A stretch of 64,000 nt of DNA from Saccharicrinis carchari (GTDB lineage: Bacteria; Bacteroidota; Bacteroidia; Bacteroidales; Marinilabiliaceae), in contig NZ_FXTB01000003.1 of the NCBI RefSeq assembly GCF_900182605.1, positions 186,001 to 250,000 on the forward strand, written 5' to 3'. Shown here one piece after another: positions 51,698-59,318 of this stretch; positions within the stretch are counted from its first letter, which is position 1; every line of letters begins with the position of its first letter. Both the position numbers and the translations under genes were made by a program. The notes below the pieces were generated by a model. It made no database searches, was not told the origin of the DNA, and saw nothing but the letters and a program-made list of their open reading frames with translations.

Positions 51698-52043
51698 AGC
51701 CTATTATTTATTCATTGTAGCTTTTATTACAACCTTTGTAATTTAATTAAGTACCAGTGCTGTATTTTTGTGCTTATTTAACGGAGTTGTCGAACGTAAT
51801 TCCGTTATTATACACCCTAATTTACCTCTTCTTATTTAATTTGAACACTAAATTACTAATTATTTTTACGGTAATATGTTATTATTAATTGCTATACAAT
51901 GCAGGTAATGAGTGCTTTGAAGTTTGTCACGCTTTTGTCACGTAAAAAAATTGCTTTTTAGTATTTATTTTTAGAGTTTTGCCTATGTATATATATGATA
52001 AATGCATAAAAATACGTTAAACGCTGTGATCATTAACATATAT
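51698..52043. other. AT-rich upstream region of the peptide-export locus
   Basis: Marks the change from core genes to the accessory region. It contains a possible -7 box TATTTTTG (51763-51770) and two exact TTTGTCACG repeats one helical turn apart (51923-51942, listed separately). No gene is seen. Confidence 0.55.
51923..51942. promoter_or_regulatory. direct repeats TTTGTCACG, 11 bp apart
   Basis: TTTGTCACG at 51923-51931 and 51934-51942, exact copies separated by one helical turn, about 105 bp upstream of the first HTH-GG gene. A partial match (TTTTTTTCACG) occurs in the HlyD-ABC intergenic region near 53628. Spacing on one DNA face suits binding of a dimer or two monomers of a regulator. 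Confidence 0.4.
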
Positions 52044-52046
52044 ATG

Positions 52047-52361
52047 ATGACCTTAAACGACAAAAGCGAACAAATTGACTTTCTGGCTACTTTGATCGTG
52101 AGAAAAAGAAACGGAAAGGCCTGCCAATTGGCCAAAAGAATTAACGTTTTGAGGAGCAAACTGTATGATATGTTTAATGACCTAAAACTATTGGGCGTTG
52201 ATATTAAATACGACAGGAGGTTGAACACTTTTTATTATGGCAACAACCTACGGGTAAAGGTAAATATACCTATTGAGATTATTAGCGAAAAAGAAATAGG
52301 GACGATAAATGGCGGTAAGTTTTACCGATCTCCCTCTAAGGATTTACTTTTTTTAAACTGA
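52047..52361 (+). CDS. HTH protein with C-terminal double-glycine leader motif and tail (first copy)
   Basis: 104 aa from MTLNDKSEQI; the frame is open from 52002, with other ATGs at 52044 and 52002. Residues about 10-45 form a helix-turn-helix (RKRNGKACQLAKRINVLRSK, LYDMFNDLKLLGVDIKYDRR), ending like winged-helix HTH_11 proteins with LNTFYYG. The C-terminus is IISEKEIGTINGG (a class II bacteriocin/GG leader signature, GG at about 89-90) followed by a 14-residue tail KFYRSPSKDLLFLN. It is first gene of the export locus, before HlyD (33-bp gap). The tail is probably cut off and exported by the C39 transporter. This is inferred. Confidence 0.75.
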   Translation: MTLNDKSEQIDFLATLIVRKRNGKACQLAKRINVLRSKLYDMFNDLKLLGVDIKYDRRLNTFYYGNNLRVKVNIPIEIISEKEIGTINGGKFYRSPSKDLLFLN

Positions 52362-52394
52362 GCTTAATTCTATTTACAGCATAAAACCTCTACG

Positions 52395-53561
52395 ATGTAC
52401 AAGCAAATTTTCCCTGCCGAAATAGTTCAGCATACCGCAGAGTATCAGTATGCAAAGAACGATAAGCCATTTATTTACATCTATCTTTCATTGATGCTTT
52501 TGTTACTGGGGTTTATTATTGTACTTCCTCTAATCCATATCGACATCACTACACAAGGTAGAGGAATTATTAAAACTCGCCTTGAAAGTAGTTCGATACA
52601 AACCGGTACATACGGATTGGTTGAGCACTGTTGGCTACGTGAAGGACAAAAAGTTTTTAAAGGCGATACGCTTTTAATATTGAACACGGATAATATTAAA
52701 GAGCAGATTAATCATATTACAAAATCAATTGCGGACAATAAAATTTTTATAAACGATCTAAGCAAGCTCATTCTCAATAAGCAAAAGTTACAATCGCCCA
52801 AGTATCGCCAGGAATTCATTCAATTTCAGGCAAAAGTGCAAGAGTACGACATAAAGCTAAAGTTATTAAAAAAGGATTTTGCTATGTCGGAACACCTCTT
52901 TAACGAAGAGGTAATTGCAGAAATGGAGTTTTTGCAAAAAAAGAGTGCTTATGAGACCTTGCTGGCCGAGAAAAAATTGTTTGAACGGCAAAAAATAAAC
53001 CAATGGCAAGCAGAAAAAACAAACCTTGAATTTGAAAATAAAGAGTTGGCATCGAATTTAACGAAACAGGTTAAAAATGAAAAACAATATGTGGTAACAG
53101 CCCCCACCACCGGCACAATTTTTCAAACCAAGGGTATTCAATCAGGTAGTTTCTTATCACCGGGACAAGTTATAGCACAAATTTCGCCCGATGAAGAAAT
53201 AATTGCAGAATGTTACATTTCCCCCTCCGATATAGGTTTTATTAATATGGACCAAGGGGTCAGTTTTCAAATTGACGCCTTCAATTATAATCAATGGGGA
53301 CTTATTGAGGGTAAGGTGATCGGTATTTCTGAAGATATAATAAGTATCGATAATTCGCCGGTTTTTAAAATTCAATGCCAACTCGCTGCTAAAAATCTCC
53401 AATTAAAATCAGGGCATAAAGGATACCTTAAAAAAGGAATGACTTTAACGGGTCGTTTCTTTTTGAACGAAAGAACTTTATACCAATTACTGTACGACAA
53501 AATGGATGATTGGCTGAACCCCAACTTGGCCAAGCTAAAACCAATAAAGGGTTTAGCTTGA
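52395..53561 (+). CDS. HlyD family secretion protein (adaptor of peptide exporter)
   Basis: Periplasmic adaptor for type I-like peptide export. One N-terminal membrane helix (FIYIYLSLMLLLLGFIIVLP, about residues 25-45), barrel-sandwich halves (TTQGRGIIKTRLESSSIQTG; VVTAPTTGTIFQTKGIQSGS), a long coiled-coil hairpin between (EMEFLQKKSAYETLLAEKKL), and a C-terminal region GYLKKGMTLTGRFFLNERTL. It is 388 aa. It precedes the C39 ABC transporter by 191 bp, a region full of inverted repeats. A diverged 138-bp copy of its 5' part is at 62047-62184. An outer-membrane partner is not in the window. Confidence 0.9.
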   Translation: MYKQIFPAEIVQHTAEYQYAKNDKPFIYIYLSLMLLLLGFIIVLPLIHIDITTQGRGIIKTRLESSSIQTGTYGLVEHCWLREGQKVFKGDTLLILNTDNIKEQINHITKSIADNKIFINDLSKLILNKQKLQSPKYRQEFIQFQAKVQEYDIKLKLLKKDFAMSEHLFNEEVIAEMEFLQKKSAYETLLAEKKLFERQKINQWQAEKTNLEFENKELASNLTKQVKNEKQYVVTAPTTGTIFQTKGIQSGSFLSPGQVIAQISPDEEIIAECYISPSDIGFINMDQGVSFQIDAFNYNQWGLIEGKVIGISEDIISIDNSPVFKIQCQLAAKNLQLKSGHKGYLKKGMTLTGRFFLNERTLYQLLYDKMDDWLNPNLAKLKPIKGLA

Positions 53562-53716
53562 CCAAGTTGCTCGGCAAAATTTAAAAACGCATATTATAAA
53601 ATTATGAGGTTTAATATTAATGTTTTTTTCACGTCAACAACGATGCGTTTTAAATTTTGCTTACGTGCCTTTTCTCTAATATTCTGCCATTTTTTGGCAG
53701 AATATTAGAGAAAAGG
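53522..53716. repeat. three consecutive inverted repeats between hlyD and the ABC transporter
   Basis: IR1: arms about 53522-53539 and 53552-53569 (18 bp with a mismatch), overlapping the hlyD stop codon. IR2: arms 53574-53592 and 53643-53660 (18 bp plus one bulged base) enclosing 50 bp. IR3: arms 53668-53689 and 53695-53716, a perfect 22-bp stem with a T5 loop. None is followed by a T run. The block covers the intergenic space, suggesting a structured RNA that sets the level of transporter expression or protects upstream mRNA. Confidence 0.8.
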
Positions 53717-53752
53717 AAACAACCCAATTAACCGAACTTAAAAAAAACAGCC

Positions 53753-55921
53753 ATGTCGATAAAAATAAAACAAAGAGATATAACCGATTGTGGAGCAGCC
53801 TGCTTGGCTTCCATTTCCGAACATTACAAATTAAAATTACCGGTTTCTAAAATCAGACAAATGGCCGGGACGGATAAAAAGGGGACGAATGTTTTGGGCT
53901 TAATCAAAGCCGCTGAAAAATTAGGTTTTACTGCCAAAGGAGTTAAAGGAGGAAATGATGCGCTACCCAAGATTCCCTTACCTGCCATAGCGCATGTTAT
54001 TGTAAAAGAAGTGCTGCATCATTATATTGTTATTTACAAAGTAAGTAAAGATGTTGTTGAATATATGGATCCCGCCGATGGACAGATTCATAAATTGTCT
54101 GTTGAAGAGTTTGCGAAAATATGGACGGGGGTGTTGGTACTGATGGTACCCAACGAAGATTTTACAACGGGGAATAATAAAGTTTCAAATATAAAACGAT
54201 TTGTCTTTTTGCTGAAACCTCATAAAGGTATTTTATCGCAAGCGCTGGTCGGTGCTATCCTTTACACCGTTCTTGGACTTTCCACATCCATATACATCCA
54301 AAAGATAACAGATTTTGTATTGATTGATAAAAATAGCAATCTGCTAAATCTCCTAAGTGTTGCGATGATAATAATTTTGCTCTTCCAAATTTTTATTGGC
54401 GCTGCAAAATCTATTTTAATGCTGCGAACCGGACAAAAAATTGATGCCCAGCTTATTTTGGGCTACTACAAACACTTGCTAAAACTCCCTCAGCGCTTTT
54501 TTGATACCATGCGTGTGGGCGAAATAATTTCGCGGGTAAACGATGCGGTAAAAATAAGGGCATTTATAAACGACACGGCCATTTCGTTAATCGTAAACAT
54601 TTTTATTATTGTATTCTCGTACAGCCTGATGTTTGCTTACAGTTGGAAACTGGCATTGATTATGACCCTTATCCTCCCGCTATACGCCATCACCTATGCC
54701 ATCACCAACAAGCTGAACAAAAAACGGGAGCGTAAGCTAATGGAAAACGCCGCCGAACTCGAAAGCCAATTGGTTGAATCGCTGAACTCCGTTAAAACCA
54801 TTAAGCAATTTGGTTTAGAAGGTTTTGCCAATATTAAAACCGAAACACGATTTATCACTTTACTGCAGTCCATCTATAAATCGGGCATCAATTCCATCTT
54901 TTCCGGCAATTCGTCCGAGTTTATCAGCCGCTTGTTTACCATCATACTGCTATGGAGCGGTTCCTATTTTGTTATACGACAAGACATAACGCCGGGAGAG
55001 CTTTTATCCTTTTATGCCTTGATAGGATACCTTACCGGGCCCGCAAGTTCTTTGGTAACGATGAACAAAACCATACAAAATGCTTTGATAGCTGCCGACC
55101 GCTTGTTCGAAATAATGGATTTGGAAAGAGAGGATGACGAGAATAAAATTGATCTGCGCGAAGATTTGATTGGCGACATTCAATTCGAAGACCTTGATTT
55201 TACCTACGGAACACGAACCGAGGTGTTTAAGGGTTTTAATTTGACCATACCCAAAGGCCGGCTAACCGCCATTATTGGAGAGAGCGGTTCCGGTAAAACC
55301 ACTCTGGCTTCGTTACTGCAGAATTTATATCCAATTAACAAAGGTAAAATAAGCATTGGGGATTGCAGCATCAATTACTACACCAACAGTAGTCTGCGTA
55401 AGCTTATTGCTTGTGTGCCCCAAAAATTGGATTTGTTTGCCGGTAATGTAATCGAAAATATTGCCGTGGGGGAGTTCAACCCCGATATGGAAAAGGTGCT
55501 CGATATATGTAAATGCATCGGTATCCTACCATTTATCGAAAGCCTGCCCCAAGGTTTTGGTACCTACCTGGGCGAAAACGGCGCCAGCCTGTCCGGCGGA
55601 CAAAAGCAGCGCCTGGCCATTGCACGTGCCTTGTACAAAGACCCGAAAATTTTAATTATAGATGAGGCCACTTCTTCGTTAGACTCTGAATCGGAGGCCT
55701 TTGTACAAAATGCCATTGATAAGCTAAAAGCAGATGGAAAAACCATTATTCTTATTGCGCACAGACTAAGCACGGTAATGAACGCCGATAAGATAGTGGT
55801 GCTTCAAAACGGAAAATTAATAGAAGAAGGCACACACCATAAACTGTTCGATAGCAAAGGAAACTATTACCAGATGTGGCAAAAACAATTTCCAAAAGCA
55901 AAAGAATTGGTCATGCGGTAA
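53753..55921 (+). CDS. ABC transporter with N-terminal C39 peptidase (PCAT), exporter of double-glycine peptides
   Basis: Inner-membrane exporter that cleaves GG-type leaders and pumps out the product. Residues 1-130 are a peptidase C39 domain: Cys13 (TDCGAACLASISEHY), His90 (EVLHHYIVIYK) and Asp106 (EYMDPADG). Six membrane helices follow (about residues 160-440). The ATPase domain has Walker A GESGSGKTTLASLL, signature LSGGQKQRLAIARALY, Walker B ILIIDEATSSLDSESE and H-loop IAHRLSTV. It is 722 aa, full length for the family. Surrounded by GG-leader peptides, its expected substrates. No modification enzymes are seen nearby. Confidence 0.95.
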   Translation: MSIKIKQRDITDCGAACLASISEHYKLKLPVSKIRQMAGTDKKGTNVLGLIKAAEKLGFTAKGVKGGNDALPKIPLPAIAHVIVKEVLHHYIVIYKVSKDVVEYMDPADGQIHKLSVEEFAKIWTGVLVLMVPNEDFTTGNNKVSNIKRFVFLLKPHKGILSQALVGAILYTVLGLSTSIYIQKITDFVLIDKNSNLLNLLSVAMIIILLFQIFIGAAKSILMLRTGQKIDAQLILGYYKHLLKLPQRFFDTMRVGEIISRVNDAVKIRAFINDTAISLIVNIFIIVFSYSLMFAYSWKLALIMTLILPLYAITYAITNKLNKKRERKLMENAAELESQLVESLNSVKTIKQFGLEGFANIKTETRFITLLQSIYKSGINSIFSGNSSEFISRLFTIILLWSGSYFVIRQDITPGELLSFYALIGYLTGPASSLVTMNKTIQNALIAADRLFEIMDLEREDDENKIDLREDLIGDIQFEDLDFTYGTRTEVFKGFNLTIPKGRLTAIIGESGSGKTTLASLLQNLYPINKGKISIGDCSINYYTNSSLRKLIACVPQKLDLFAGNVIENIAVGEFNPDMEKVLDICKCIGILPFIESLPQGFGTYLGENGASLSGGQKQRLAIARALYKDPKILIIDEATSSLDSESEAFVQNAIDKLKADGKTIILIAHRLSTVMNADKIVVLQNGKLIEEGTHHKLFDSKGNYYQMWQKQFPKAKELVMR

Positions 55922-56033
55922 GGTCTATAAAGATGGGGAATTTATAAGTTAGGTTTAAACTATCCCAATAAACAAAACTCGCGTACTTTTCCTAAAACAA
56001 TTTAAAATAACAGAACACTTAAAAAACATAACC

Positions 56034-56369
56034 ATGGCAAAACTAACCAAAACCATTGAATTAATGGAACGTATTGATAAGATGATAGCAAGAAAGGCAA
56101 CCGGCTCACCACAAGAACTGGCCGAACGCTTGAATATATCACGAGCCTCGCTTCATAGGGTAATCGATGTAATGAAGTTTTTTGGAGCACCTATTGAATA
56201 CCGCATTTCAAGTCAAAGTTATGTTTATACATGTGACGTTGCTTTTTATTGTGGCTTTTATGCAAAAAAGCTATCCGGAGAGGAGTTGCAAGCGGTTAAT
56301 GGCGGCTTTGCGAAATTCAAAACCTTAACAAATATTAACACAATGCAGGGGCTCAGTCTCAAAAAATGA
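56034..56369 (+). CDS. HTH protein with C-terminal double-glycine leader motif and tail (second, full-length)
   Basis: 111 aa, same architecture as the gene at 52047. HTH at about residues 23-47 (ATGSPQELAERLNISRASLH, RVIDVMKFFGAPIEYRISS), then a beta hairpin SYVYTCDVAFYCGFYA, then the leader signature KKLSGEELQAVNGG with GG at 90-91, then a 20-residue tail FAKFKTLTNINTMQGLSLKK. Classic GG leaders read LSxEELxxVxGG, so the match is close. It sits 113 bp after the C39 transporter. Its 3' 230 bp are duplicated at 58592 onward. Whether the HTH still binds DNA is untested. Confidence 0.8.
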   Translation: MAKLTKTIELMERIDKMIARKATGSPQELAERLNISRASLHRVIDVMKFFGAPIEYRISSQSYVYTCDVAFYCGFYAKKLSGEELQAVNGGFAKFKTLTNINTMQGLSLKK

Positions 56370-56609
56370 GACTGGTATGTTTTAATATTGTATCTGTAAC
56401 GTTACGGTACCGGAGTATTGTTTTTCAAATGCCGGTATAAATACCCCGATGGACGTCCTTGCAAAACAGTTCCACCGGGGCGCAGGATTATCTCCTGCAC
56501 AAAATTAACTTTTTTATTAACAATTTTAAATTTTGTGATTATGAAGAATTTAAATGATTTGGGCGTTCAGGAAATGGACGTTAGAGAAATGAAAGAAGAA
56601 AATGGAGGA
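56143..56609 (+). repeat. direct repeat copy 1 (467 bp)
   Basis: Covers the last two thirds of the HTH-GG gene, the 171-bp leader and the leader-peptide part of GG peptide 1. It is nearly identical to 58592-59056 except for scattered substitutions and a 2-bp length difference near 56520. Divergence begins exactly after the GG codons, where the mature peptides differ. Confidence 0.9.
56354..56498 (+). promoter_or_regulatory. structured leader upstream of GG peptide 1
   Basis: Three hairpins: CAGTCTCA/TGAGACTG (56354-56374, overlapping the HTH-GG stop codon); CCCCGATGGA/TCCACCGGGG (56444-56480, one mismatch); GCAGGA/TCCTGC (56482-56498). The same layout occurs in copy 2 (58803-58947), where the last stem reads GCAGGTT/AACCTGC, a compensatory change. 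This supports a selected RNA structure in the peptide mRNA leader. Confidence 0.7.
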
Positions 56610-56681
56610 ACTTTTACGTTTCTTAACTGGATTAAAATCAGTAGAAGTTGGAGAACCGACTATGATTACTATAATGCCTAA
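56541..56681 (+). CDS. double-glycine leader peptide 1 (candidate bacteriocin or signal peptide)
   Basis: 46 aa. Leader MKNLNDLGVQEMDVREMKEE then NGG; mature part about 23 aa beginning TFTFLNWIKISRSWRTDYDY, aromatic and basic, without cysteine. I start at 56541 because the same leader occurs in peptide 2; the frame also opens at 56418 inside the structured leader. It is expected to be cleaved and exported by the C39 transporter 0.6 kb upstream. No modification enzymes are present, so an unmodified class II-type bacteriocin or a signalling peptide is likely. Confidence 0.8.
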   Translation: MKNLNDLGVQEMDVREMKEENGGTFTFLNWIKISRSWRTDYDYYNA

Positions 56682-56786: not shown

Positions 56787-58574
56787 ATGAAAGAAAAAGC
56801 TCGCTTGGTTTATACAACAGAATTGGAAAAAACAAAGAAAGAGATTACTTGTAGGGAGATAAAAGATAAAAACAATGGGTATTTTAGACTCGTATTGTTT
56901 TTATTAATAATAAGTTGTAGTTTTTTTCTTTCAAAATATTTTTACATATGTGTTACAATTCTATGTGTAATATTCACCTGTATTGTTGTTTCCAATCTTA
57001 TAAACAAAAATAAGCTGAATTACCATAAAGCCCTATACAAATTATACAATTTTGAGCTGAATCATAATTCAACAAAAATAAATTTGTTCGACAATGGCTT
57101 AACTTATATTGACCCTAAGCATCTTTATTCTAACGATCTGGATTTATTTGGCAAGAACTCCATTTTTGAATTTATAAACCGATGCCATAGTGAAATTGGT
57201 TCCAAGACTTTGGCCAATTGGCTTCTATATCCGGGAACATCGAAAGTTATCAAAGACAGGCAGTTGGCAGTAGAAGAGCTTTCCCAAAAATTAGAATTCA
57301 GAAAAAAAGTTGGTGTATCAGGAATTCTAAACACAGAAAATAAGCATATCCAAAAATGGAGAGGGGATCCTGAGTCGGTTAGAAAATTGCGTATAATAAA
57401 ATTTAAAGGATTAGCACTTTCAATTATTAATGTTAGCCTTCTGTTTATTTCAGTAATTTATGGTGTTGTACTTCCCTTTTTTGTGATAAGCATTACCTTT
57501 TCATATTTCTATATGTATAGTTTTCAATGGAAAAAAATTGAAACTTTATATAAAGAGATTTCTAAGTTAGATGGTGACTTAAAATATTTTAGAAAATATA
57601 TCGCTGCTATAGAAAATGAAAGTTTCTCAAGTGTATTGTTAAATAACCTAAAAAATGAGATAAGCCTAAACAATATATCAGGAATTAAAACAACTAAAAA
57701 ATTACAAAAATACATACAGATTACTGATTTAAGACTCAATTATGTATTCTTATTGTTCGTGAACACATTTTTTTATGTCGACATATTGATGCTTTATAAA
57801 ATTGAAAAATGGAAATTAGAAAATGGGAAACAGCTTACAATGTGGCAAAAAATCATTGGTAAGTATGAAGCATTAATGAGCTTATCCATTCTTCATTTTA
57901 ATAACAACTGGTGCTTTCCTACAATTGCTGACGAATTTAATATTGAAATTGTAAATGCAGGTCACCCTTTAATTCCTGTTGAAAAATGCGTAACAAATAG
58001 TTATAAAATGGACGCATTAGGACGTGTTGACATATTAACGGGGTCAAACATGTCCGGTAAAAGTACCTTTTTGCGCAGCGTTGGGGTTAATATTGTACTT
58101 GCACTTGCAGGGGCTCCAGTATTTGCGGTAGAAATGACAATATCTCCATTGCAGTTAATGACGTATATGCGCATTGAAGACAATTTACAGGAGAATACAT
58201 CAACATTCTATGCTGAGATCATAAGATTAAGGACTATTTTAGAAAATATTAGAAATAATAGCTATTCATTCTTATTACTTGATGAACTATTAAGAGGAAC
58301 AAACAGCAGCGATAAAAAGCAAGGAAGTATTGCTATTATTGAACATATATTAAAAAACAATTCATCTTCAATAATTGCCACCCACGATTTATCAATAGCT
58401 AAACTGTATGAGGGCACAAGTAATGCAATCAGAAATTACCATTTTGACATCAAGGTTAACAATAAAACAATGAGTTTCGATTATAAGTTATGCACAGGAA
58501 TTTGTAATTCAAGCAATGCAACTCTCTTGTTAAAAGAAATAGGGCTTAATGTGCCTAAAAAACCTGCTATATAA
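56787..58574 (+). CDS. membrane-anchored MutS-family ATPase
   Basis: 595 aa. The C-terminal third is a MutS domain V ATPase: Walker A ILTGSNMSGKSTFLRSVGVN (about residues 415-434), Walker B FLLLDELLRGTNSSDKK (about 495) and the IIATHDLSIAKLYEG switch. In the N-terminal two thirds, hydrophobic pairs (about residues 33-68 and 207-245) and one near 325-345 predict membrane helices; no mismatch-recognition domain is present. Such membrane MutS relatives exist in Bacteroidota with unknown function. Here it lies between two GG-peptide cassettes and is visibly AT-richer than the core genes. A role in peptide immunity or export is only contextual. Confidence 0.8.
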   Translation: MKEKARLVYTTELEKTKKEITCREIKDKNNGYFRLVLFLLIISCSFFLSKYFYICVTILCVIFTCIVVSNLINKNKLNYHKALYKLYNFELNHNSTKINLFDNGLTYIDPKHLYSNDLDLFGKNSIFEFINRCHSEIGSKTLANWLLYPGTSKVIKDRQLAVEELSQKLEFRKKVGVSGILNTENKHIQKWRGDPESVRKLRIIKFKGLALSIINVSLLFISVIYGVVLPFFVISITFSYFYMYSFQWKKIETLYKEISKLDGDLKYFRKYIAAIENESFSSVLLNNLKNEISLNNISGIKTTKKLQKYIQITDLRLNYVFLLFVNTFFYVDILMLYKIEKWKLENGKQLTMWQKIIGKYEALMSLSILHFNNNWCFPTIADEFNIEIVNAGHPLIPVEKCVTNSYKMDALGRVDILTGSNMSGKSTFLRSVGVNIVLALAGAPVFAVEMTISPLQLMTYMRIEDNLQENTSTFYAEIIRLRTILENIRNNSYSFLLLDELLRGTNSSDKKQGSIAIIEHILKNNSSSIIATHDLSIAKLYEGTSNAIRNYHFDIKVNNKTMSFDYKLCTGICNSSNATLLLKEIGLNVPKKPAI

Positions 58575-58620
58575 TTTTATTTTCTTTGCTTGAGCTTCGC
58601 TTCATAGGGTAATCGATGTA

Positions 58621-58818
58621 ATGAAGTTTTTTGGGGCACCTATTGAATACCGCATTTCAAGTCAAAGTTATATTTATACCTCCGTAGTCGCTTTTTACTG
58701 TGGTTTTTATGCAAAAAAGCTATCCGGAGAGGAGTTGCAAGCGCTTAATGGCGGCTTTGCGAAATTCAATACTTTAACAAATATTAACACGGCGCAGGGG
58801 TTCAGTCTCAAAAAATGA
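58621..58818 (+). CDS. HTH-less copy of the HTH-GG protein (truncated)
   Basis: 65 aa from an internal ATG: MKFFGAPIEYRISSQSYIYT, then CGFYAKKLSGEELQALNGG and the tail FAKFNTLTNINTAQGFSLKK. It lacks the first 47 residues of the 56034 protein, hence the HTH. The GG leader and tail are intact, with conservative changes (V to L before GG, K to N, M to A, L to F). It may be a pseudogene, or a now plain GG-leader peptide that still delivers the tail. No own promoter is evident. Confidence 0.55.
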   Translation: MKFFGAPIEYRISSQSYIYTSVVAFYCGFYAKKLSGEELQALNGGFAKFNTLTNINTAQGFSLKK

Positions 58819-58947
58819 GACTGGTATGTTTTAATATTGTATCTGTAGCGTTACGGTACCGGAGTATTATTTTTCAAATGCCGATATAAATACCCCGATG
58901 GACGTCCTTGCAAAACAGTTCCACCGGGGCGCAGGTTAAGAACCTGC
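58803..58947 (+). promoter_or_regulatory. structured leader upstream of GG peptide 2
   Basis: Counterpart of 56354-56498: CAGTCTCA/TGAGACTG at 58803-58823, CCCCGATGGA/TCCACCGGGG at 58893-58929, and GCAGGTT/AACCTGC at 58931-58947. The last stem differs from copy 1 by an A-T to T-A swap that keeps pairing. Confidence 0.7.
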
Positions 58948-58987
58948 ACAAAATTAACTTTTTTATTAAATTTTAGATTTTGTGATT

Positions 58988-59158
58988 ATGAAGAATTTGA
59001 ATGATTTGGGCGTTCAGGAAATGGACGCTATGGAAATGAAGAAAACAGATGGTGGATTCAATTATTTGGTATTGCAAGTTGCAATCTGGGCCGTTGGGGA
59101 ATACCATGATATGAAACGAGGATGTGAAGATGCGTTAAGGGAATGGGCAGAACAATAA
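58988..59158 (+). CDS. double-glycine leader peptide 2
   Basis: 56 aa. Leader MKNLNDLGVQEMDAMEMKKT then DGG, nearly that of peptide 1; mature part about 33 aa beginning FNYLVLQVAIWAVGEYHDMK and ending CEDALREWAEQ, with one cysteine and an amphipathic character. The leader is duplicated but the mature part is unrelated to peptide 1, as if the core had been exchanged at the GG junction. It is a substrate candidate for the C39 transporter. It is followed 19 bp later by peptide 3. Confidence 0.8.
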   Translation: MKNLNDLGVQEMDAMEMKKTDGGFNYLVLQVAIWAVGEYHDMKRGCEDALREWAEQ

Positions 59159-59177: not shown

Positions 59178-59318
59178 ATGAAAGATTTAAACGAAAAGGA
59201 ACTTAAAACAATTAATGGAGGTAGTCAATTCGGTTATTACCTTGGTTATTATTGGACTAAAGGAATGACTAAAATTATGGATGGTATCGACTGGGTTAAT
59301 GAACAGGTAGGTCTGTAG
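59178..59318 (+). CDS. double-glycine leader peptide 3
   Basis: 46 aa. Very short leader MKDLNEKELKTINGG (GG at 14-15), then a 31-residue part SQFGYYLGYYWTKGMTKIMD continuing to DWVNEQVGL. Glycine- and tyrosine-rich start typical of class II two-peptide bacteriocins (repeated GxxxG-like spacing: GYYLGYYWTKG). It is paired with peptide 2 in one transcript that ends in a terminator, so the two could act together, as two-peptide bacteriocins do. This is inference. Confidence 0.8.
   Translation: MKDLNEKELKTINGGSQFGYYLGYYWTKGMTKIMDGIDWVNEQVGL

Follow-up and report, generated by a model that had tools for sequence, protein, structure and literature searches.

Helix-turn-helix (HTH) proteins that end in a double-glycine (GG) leader followed by a short tail (HTH-GG proteins hereinafter) recur in the Bacteroidota close to C39 peptidase exporter genes and to genes for GG-leader peptides. 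Two of them are encoded by the DNA analysed here (the window), a stretch of 64,000 nucleotides from the 4.64-Mb genome of Saccharicrinis carchari (contig NZ_FXTB01000003.1, C3:186001-250000); coordinates given for it are window positions. According to the reading that we prefer, and to which we give an even chance, HTH-GG proteins are local winged-HTH regulators of exported-peptide loci carrying an added C-terminal docking or cleavage tag for C39, so that export feeds back on transcription. The architecture, its recurrence, its association with C39 and GG peptides, and the position of an inverted repeat come from comparison. To our knowledge, little is known about the control of exported-peptide genes in Bacteroidota; were the regulator processed or held by the C39 exporter, a single peptidase would export the cargo and also adjust how strongly it is expressed, in a compact feedback loop.

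The original prediction described two HTH proteins with a C-terminal GG leader flanking the HlyD and C39 genes, and this arrangement is confirmed by the open reading frames (ORFs), the Pfam and NCBIfam matches, and homology. Protein 1 ends in IISEKEIGTINGG followed by 14 residues (GG leader 52275-52316, tail 52317-52358), and protein 2 in KKLSGEELQAVNGG followed by 20 residues (GG leader 56265-56306, tail 56307-56366). By reading, both leaders have hydrophobic residues at positions -4, -7 and -12 and glycines at -2 and -1, as in C39 substrates; the C39 exporter of the window keeps the catalytic residues Q7, C13, H90 and D106. The locus also harbors features beyond those listed at first, namely a truncated third copy (58594-58818) and GG-leader ORFs at 56541, 58988 and 59178.

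Concerning the fold, protein 2 matches Pfam HTH_11 above the cut-off (28.7 vs 25 bits, E 1.2e-6), and the same model is matched by 14 out of 24 members of the protein family at E ≤ 0.01. Protein 1 has only sub-threshold Pfam HTH matches (the best to TrmB, E 0.022); it is retrieved with protein 2 as the query (E 7.8e-6, 25% identity) and also aligns with the family. The AlphaFold model of protein 2 is a winged HTH with a short leader helix (residues 82-88) and is of low confidence from residue 90 on (four sequences, mean predicted local distance difference test score 63). Foldseek assigned to this model a probability of 1.0 for 1j5y and 7cv0, with an E of 0.04 and no match below 0.001; a sequence search of the PDB retrieved no credible HTH match. 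From the HTH_11 match of protein 2, together with the low-confidence model and its Foldseek matches, a winged-HTH fold is predicted.

HTH-GG proteins are not a peculiarity of this locus: other Bacteroidota, far beyond the window, encode homologues, and a Carboxylicivirga metagenome assembly encodes a relative of protein 2 that is 73% identical. Using the entire protein 2 as the query, homologues were found in 36 out of 71 genomes of the same taxonomic family (E ≤ 0.01), and a profile of 24 GG-bearing members gave matches in 57 out of 392 genomes of the phylum (E ≤ 1e-4), many of them to the HTH alone; since this profile includes the GG, the sample is biased towards it. The ORFs of 60 regions from the family search and 34 from the phylum search (L numbers below; G numbers are genomes), plus those of the window, were then searched with an HTH-only model. 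The 105 HTH hits at E ≤ 1e-12 were retained, 59 of them with GG or AG, and hits with a higher E (window 58594-58815 and L156) were left out. Five AG cases were set by hand as GG and L051 (“GA”, no leader) as GG-less, and the stop-broken genes of L039 and L138 were counted as GG-less as well; the list of the 24 genomes with HTH-GG was compiled by hand from the HTH hit table. Of the 105 rows, two are absent from the tree, namely L074 3629-3829 and a row whose domain has fewer than 55 residues. All counts refer to the Bacteroidota, and a class-level scan with 46 out of 396 genomes stays outside each of them.

The distribution of the leader follows protein length. Of the 62 HTH homologues that reach 95 residues, 58 have GG or AG at the leader site, the remaining four showing GD, GS or no motif, whereas only one of the 43 shorter ones has it (L132, with the stop codon straight after the GG). 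Moreover, the GG-less proteins of L067, L071, L076, L086, L087 and L091 end exactly where the leader would start. This length split and these endings imply that the leader is a C-terminal module, either whole or absent. Free variation at the GG, named in the original prediction as a sign against it, is thus not seen among the long homologues; GG-less homologues are, nevertheless, common. In the 54 GG motifs, position -12 is hydrophobic in 81%, -8 is D/E in 67%, -7 is hydrophobic in 59%, and -4 is hydrophobic in 69%. In LahT, according to the portion of PMC6363468 available, residues -4, -7 and -12 are accommodated in a groove lined by hydrophobic residues, and the motif needed for recognition is contained in the final 13 residues of the leader. 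The family positions fit this groove, which makes the HTH-GG leader, on paper, a good C39 substrate.

The module might in principle be a relic, that is, HTH genes might have been repeatedly fused with the leader of a neighbouring GG-peptide gene, the tag being functionless in the regulator. At least 16 GG changes on the HTH tree (built on few columns, with many forks unresolved) are in line with such fusions, as are the GG-less relatives that end at the leader start and occur elsewhere, e.g., on Bacteroides plasmids, where proteins of 80 and 83 amino acids are encoded next to tra genes. The retention of GG or AG in nearly all the long proteins argues against this view, together with the differences at nonsynonymous (pN) and synonymous (pS) sites of the leader (pN 0.16 vs pS 0.50, pooled over 13 disjoint pairs); we regard the relic as distinctly improbable.

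The co-occurrence of GG-tagged HTH proteins with C39 genes, which had been proposed as a check, was borne out: a C39 match is present in 21 out of the 24 genomes with HTH-GG and in 17 out of the 47 without (p 4e-5). Within 7 kb, a C39 gene was found for 26 of 36 GG/AG proteins against 14 of 36 GG-less ones in the family set (p 0.009); in the phylum set, the corresponding figures are 18 of 23 and 4 of 10 (p 0.05). These simple tests, as well as those for GG peptides, ignore kinship. The opposite outcome, the absence of a nearby C39 transporter, concerns 15 of the 59 GG/AG genes in the fetched DNA (seven of the 15 sit less than 3 kb from an end of the stretch), but not the other 44. On the same strand and within 500 bases of the 59 GG genes, HlyD is next downstream in 10 cases and C39 next upstream in 20. 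Furthermore, a GG-leader ORF lies on the same strand within 4 kb for 43 out of 59 GG proteins and for 7 out of 44 others, compared to 3 out of 103 on the opposite strand. Since a short GG-leader ORF often follows them, HTH-GG genes mark exported-peptide loci.

Gene sets of this kind are also found on plasmids. On the 15.4-kb plasmid pAT7 of Aureibacter tunicatorum (L178, NZ_AP025312.1), the genes for an HTH-GG protein (WP_309943463.1), TolC, HlyD and C39 stand in a row together with an ORF of 49 residues whose leader is GG-like; on the other side of this row, four ORFs with the GG pattern run the opposite way. A Persicobacter plasmid carries HlyD, C39, HTH-GG and two GG-pattern ORFs. The export set of pAT7 adjoins replication and partition genes and the gene for a CHAT-domain protein.

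Two readings had been put forward for this architecture, i.e., a giant leader with an exported tail, or a regulator linked to the cleavage and export of its own tail. According to the former, the HTH is merely a carrier from which C39 cuts off the tail after the GG, and it is this exported tail that is active, as in NHLP and Nif11 precursors. The layout would agree with it: a conserved part of about 90 residues ends in GG and is followed by a short variable tail, as the accessible text of PMC2887384 reports for NHLP; GG-leader ORFs and C39 are close by; and the tails are alike within clades. The pattern of change would not. In the pooled pairs, the HTH is the most constrained part of the protein (pN 0.11, pS 0.57) and is thus under persistent strong constraint, whereas the tail (pN 0.21, pS 0.33) changes faster as a protein and more slowly at silent sites (p 1e-7). 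The slower change at silent sites, despite the faster protein change, points to an overlapping DNA function at the tail.

Such a function has a candidate in an inverted repeat. Perfect arms of at least seven bases lie over or beside the stop codon of 25 out of 59 HTH-GG genes (2.7 expected from shuffles) and of 4 out of 46 GG-less genes (1.9 expected); with a mismatch-tolerant score and a 95% shuffle threshold, the repeat is found in 26 of the 59 GG loci and in 1 of the 46 others. The loci are not independent, the 26 repeat-bearing ones collapsing to 14 rows at less than 75% identity. The half-site differs among clades: CAGTCTCA in that of the window, TTCCGTCC in L126-L132, TTCCGTGC in L068 and L059, and CACTCCA in L046 and L053. 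By reading, the DNA of the inverted repeat, when translated in frame, gives the tail motifs SLKK-stop, PCFFSARN and RPILLDG. Moreover, the repeat is found again 5′ of GG-leader ORFs lacking an intact HTH-GG (window 58803, L129 16227 and L059 276-300, where the leader of the following ORF is imperfect), and a further copy (L129 11921) lies 5′ of a small ORF without a GG leader. In its own genome, allowing up to three mismatches, the window repeat occurs at two sites only, both exact and each 5′ of a GG-leader ORF.

The 3′ inverted repeat is thus a candidate operator, or an RNA hairpin, and the conserved tails may in part reflect this overlapping repeat in the DNA. The coincidence of the tail motifs with a repeat that is also found outside the gene speaks against an exported active tail, as does L132, which stops directly after the GG. 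Because the HTH is the most constrained part and the conserved tails partly correspond to an inverted repeat, the regulator fits better than the giant leader, which is weakened and which we consider unlikely. A conserved tail after a GG should therefore not be taken for a bioactive peptide, conservation being here partly that of an inverted repeat in the DNA.

If HTH-GG proteins are regulators, the most likely target of protein 2 would be the inverted repeat at the 3′ end of its own gene and, through it, the promoter of the downstream GG-peptide genes, and the most likely target of protein 1 would be its own HlyD-C39 transcript. As protein 1 precedes HlyD-C39 and protein 2 precedes the peptides, exporter and cargo may be set separately. 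The C39 domain of the exporter would bind the regulator by its GG helix and would probably cut after the GG, in competition with ordinary GG peptides; since the tag is C-terminal, the DNA-binding part would stay in the cell after the cut. As GG peptides and regulator would compete for one peptidase, the proportions of the regulator in the free, docked and cut states would track the exporter load and report it to transcription, and the cut could either free or silence the regulator. In this scheme, we infer the binding to the repeat, the docking and cleavage by C39, and the feedback together with its sign. Docking might also occur without cleavage, the GG helix tethering the regulator to the C39 domain and off the DNA until cargo peptides displace it. 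This would suit both the groove-filling residues upstream of the GG, which are kept in the family (on LahT, see the part of PMC6363468 cited above), and the poor conservation of the tails as protein; the GG, i.e., the cutting site, is, however, the most constant feature of the tag, and docking alone seems rather unlikely to us.

In its boldest form, the regulator reading would make HTH-GG proteins export-sensing transcription factors and, as such, a new class of gene control: the regulator would carry the substrate tag of the secretion machine that it helps to control, the competition between cargo and regulator for C39 would set cargo transcription, and the class would be widespread in Bacteroidota, with the operator lying within the codons of the regulator’s tail and recurring 5′ of additional cargo genes. 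We propose this class tentatively, its chances being somewhat short of even.

Several results weigh against this regulatory scheme. A reversed control pattern likewise gave two hits with up to three mismatches in the S. carchari genome. Half-sites seem to be more alike where the recognition helices are alike, the Mantel test for this being not significant (r 0.18, p 0.083, 14 rows). At the 3′ end of protein 1 there is no repeat of this kind, and 33 out of 59 GG loci have none above the threshold. Ten GG-less HTH genes lie directly 5′ of HlyD, followed by C39, with no GG-pattern ORF within 4 kb; thus, the regulation of the exporter need not involve the GG. Moreover, the genomes G003, G037 and G039 carry HTH-GG and have no C39 match (G038, a relative of G037 and G039, has GD in place of GG), and the tree-based pair tests, with five pairs, are powerless (the median p is 0.5 in the case of C39 and 1 in that of GG peptides). 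The ten loci with a GG-less HTH gene before HlyD are L057, L072, L077, L078, L081, L082, L085, L088, L089 and L092; an inactive C39 was considered and rejected, the catalytic residues being present in 10 out of 10.

As for known systems, FlgM and similar regulators are exported by the machine they control, the export state being read via a regulator that is itself a substrate; compared to HTH-GG, the exporter is a different one, there is no C39 cleavage, and FlgM has no DNA-binding domain. NiaR and the N-terminal domain of BirA (HTH_11-type) share the winged-HTH fold with HTH-GG, which, unlike regulators of this type, has no effector domain and has a C39 tag instead. The nearest in shape are the NHLP (TIGR03793) and Nif11-type N11P (TIGR03798) precursors, in which, as stated in the sections of PMC2887384 at hand, a domain-sized conserved part ends in GG, a short variable tail follows, and the exporter is of the C39 type. 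HTH-GG differs from them in that its domain is a DNA-binding fold, strongly constrained and with a candidate DNA site nearby, whereas NHLP has lost the catalytic residues of the parent enzyme; the Pfam and NCBIfam models of NHLP and Nif11 matched neither the window proteins at E ≤ 1 nor the 24 members at E ≤ 0.01. Bacteroidetocin loci resemble HTH-GG loci in being from Bacteroidota, with GG-leader peptides and a C39 exporter; the excerpt of PMC6671954 lists four other genes (for a transmembrane protein, a Cys-containing GG peptide, a thiol oxidoreductase and a C39 ATP-binding cassette (ABC) protein) and describes no HTH-GG gene. C39 and GG peptides are present in the window, its three GG peptides having, by reading, at most one Cys. 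A survey of ribosomally synthesized and post-translationally modified peptides in Bacteroidales describes, in its available portion, C39 exporters accompanied by GG precursors, and mentions one HTH gene that might encode a regulator (PMC10352776). The original prediction knew of no described HTH-type leader, and none was found by us either: among the literature matches listed and the NCBIfam models there is no HTH protein with a C-terminal GG leader, the subscription literature being thinly covered and novelty unproven.

The features of the locus are listed in the following table.

Table. Features of the HTH-GG locus in the window (GG, double-glycine; aa, amino acids)
Feature	Position	Strand	Remarks
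HTH-GG protein 1	52047..52361	+	104 aa; immediately 5′ of HlyD; HTH by homology
HlyD-type adaptor	52395..53561	+	Pfam HlyD_3, E 1.7e-13
C39 peptidase-ABC exporter	53753..55921	+	Peptidase_C39, E 4.1e-36; TIGR01193 above cut-off
HTH-GG protein 2	56034..56369	+	111 aa; winged HTH (predicted); immediately 3′ of C39
Inverted repeat CAGTCTCA-N5-TGAGACTG	56354..56374	none	overlaps the stop codon of protein 2 and codons of its tail; candidate operator, alternatively an RNA hairpin
TAATATTG	56383..56390	+	kept in the alignment of related regions; putative promoter element
Palindrome GTAACGTTAC	56396..56405	none	between protein 2 and GG peptide
Structured 5′ leader of GG-peptide gene	56440..56545	+	three stems (predicted)
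Short ORF, GG leader (MKNLNDLGVQEMDVREMKEENGG...)	56541..56681	+	by reading
5′-truncated copy of protein 2	58594..58818	+	retains wing, GG leader and tail
Inverted repeat, second copy	58803..58823	none	5′ of second GG peptide
Short ORF, GG leader (MKNLNDLGVQEMDAMEMKKTDGG...)	58988..59158	+	second GG peptide
Short ORF, GG leader (MKDLNEKELKTINGG...)	59178..59318	+	TIGR01847 above cut-off (17.8 vs 15.7 bits)

The first of the short ORFs has no family match in the NCBIfam scan. Part of protein 2 and its downstream region are duplicated (approximately 56143-56540 and 58593-58975), the two copies flanking a gene for a MutS-like membrane ATPase; a gene of this kind lies directly 3′ of a GG-leader ORF in the window (56787-58574), L059 (389-2176) and L045 (10249-11787). 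Between HlyD and C39 (53669-53715), there is a perfect 21-base inverted repeat with a 5-base loop.

In the clade of the window, the repeat is followed, in this order, by a -7-like box, a palindrome, a structured 5′ leader and the peptide gene. The first of these, TAATATTG, resembles what we take to be the Bacteroidetes -7 promoter box, and the comparison is putative. The palindrome GTAACGTTAC is found straight after HTH-GG in 7 out of 11 related regions, with one site each, and in the L124-L132 clade TTCTCGAGAA has the equivalent place in five of six loci, L129 having a second one 5′ of another GG-leader ORF. More generally, perfect palindromes lie downstream of the HTH gene in 18 out of 59 GG loci (7.5 when shuffled) and in 3 out of 46 GG-less ones (5.8), and upstream of it in 4 (8.3) and 6 (6.2), respectively. 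A genome-wide regulon marked by GTAACGTTAC was rejected: TGTAACGTTACA, with at most one mismatch, has 13 sites in the genome against 7 for the control, so that only the position of GTAACGTTAC counts.

The structured 5′ leader precedes GG-leader ORFs in the window (56440-56545 and 58889-58992), L033-L039 and L075, with a fold z of -3.0. Its 12 copies from nine loci have 22 pairs, 6 of them changed on both sides, with a covariation term of just -0.21, and stem 1 is missing from some copies. In Rfam, the leader of the window gave only sub-threshold microRNA matches, and seven loci gave none at the gathering level. In L046, L053, L054, L058, L064 and L070, the HTH-GG gene and the GG-leader ORF are separated by another noncoding block (CCCGGCCGGAAA...), which is strongly conserved and not significantly folded; structured RNA was not supported for the blocks that other clades conserve at this place (z -2.1 to +1.0, seven sequences).

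A different repeat, 5′ of protein 1 (51923-51942), had been suggested as the regulator’s own target. This suggestion was not borne out: the element also precedes other genes and is present in G047, which has neither a homologue at E ≤ 0.01 nor a C39 match. As a genus-wide element, it was rejected as evidence specific to HTH-GG. It is exactly conserved in the window and L056, and not in L080; its half-site alone is not over-represented in the window. With three mismatches, elements of this type gave 8 hits in the S. carchari genome vs 6 for the reversed control, and with two mismatches 22 hits in five other genomes vs 2 for the control. The TTTGTCACG repeat, with 11-base spacing and often 60-90 bases 5′ of start codons, occurs at window 51923-51942 and in L158, L168, L169, L170, L173 and L175, and in L158, L168, L173 and L175 the element lies beside TPR-LuxR genes. 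In L158, the gene at 1589-1933, which adjoins the TPR-LuxR gene, encodes a small protein that probably has a signal peptide and contains tandem units like NKVEREDPIIIMC; this protein may represent a multi-copy peptide precursor.

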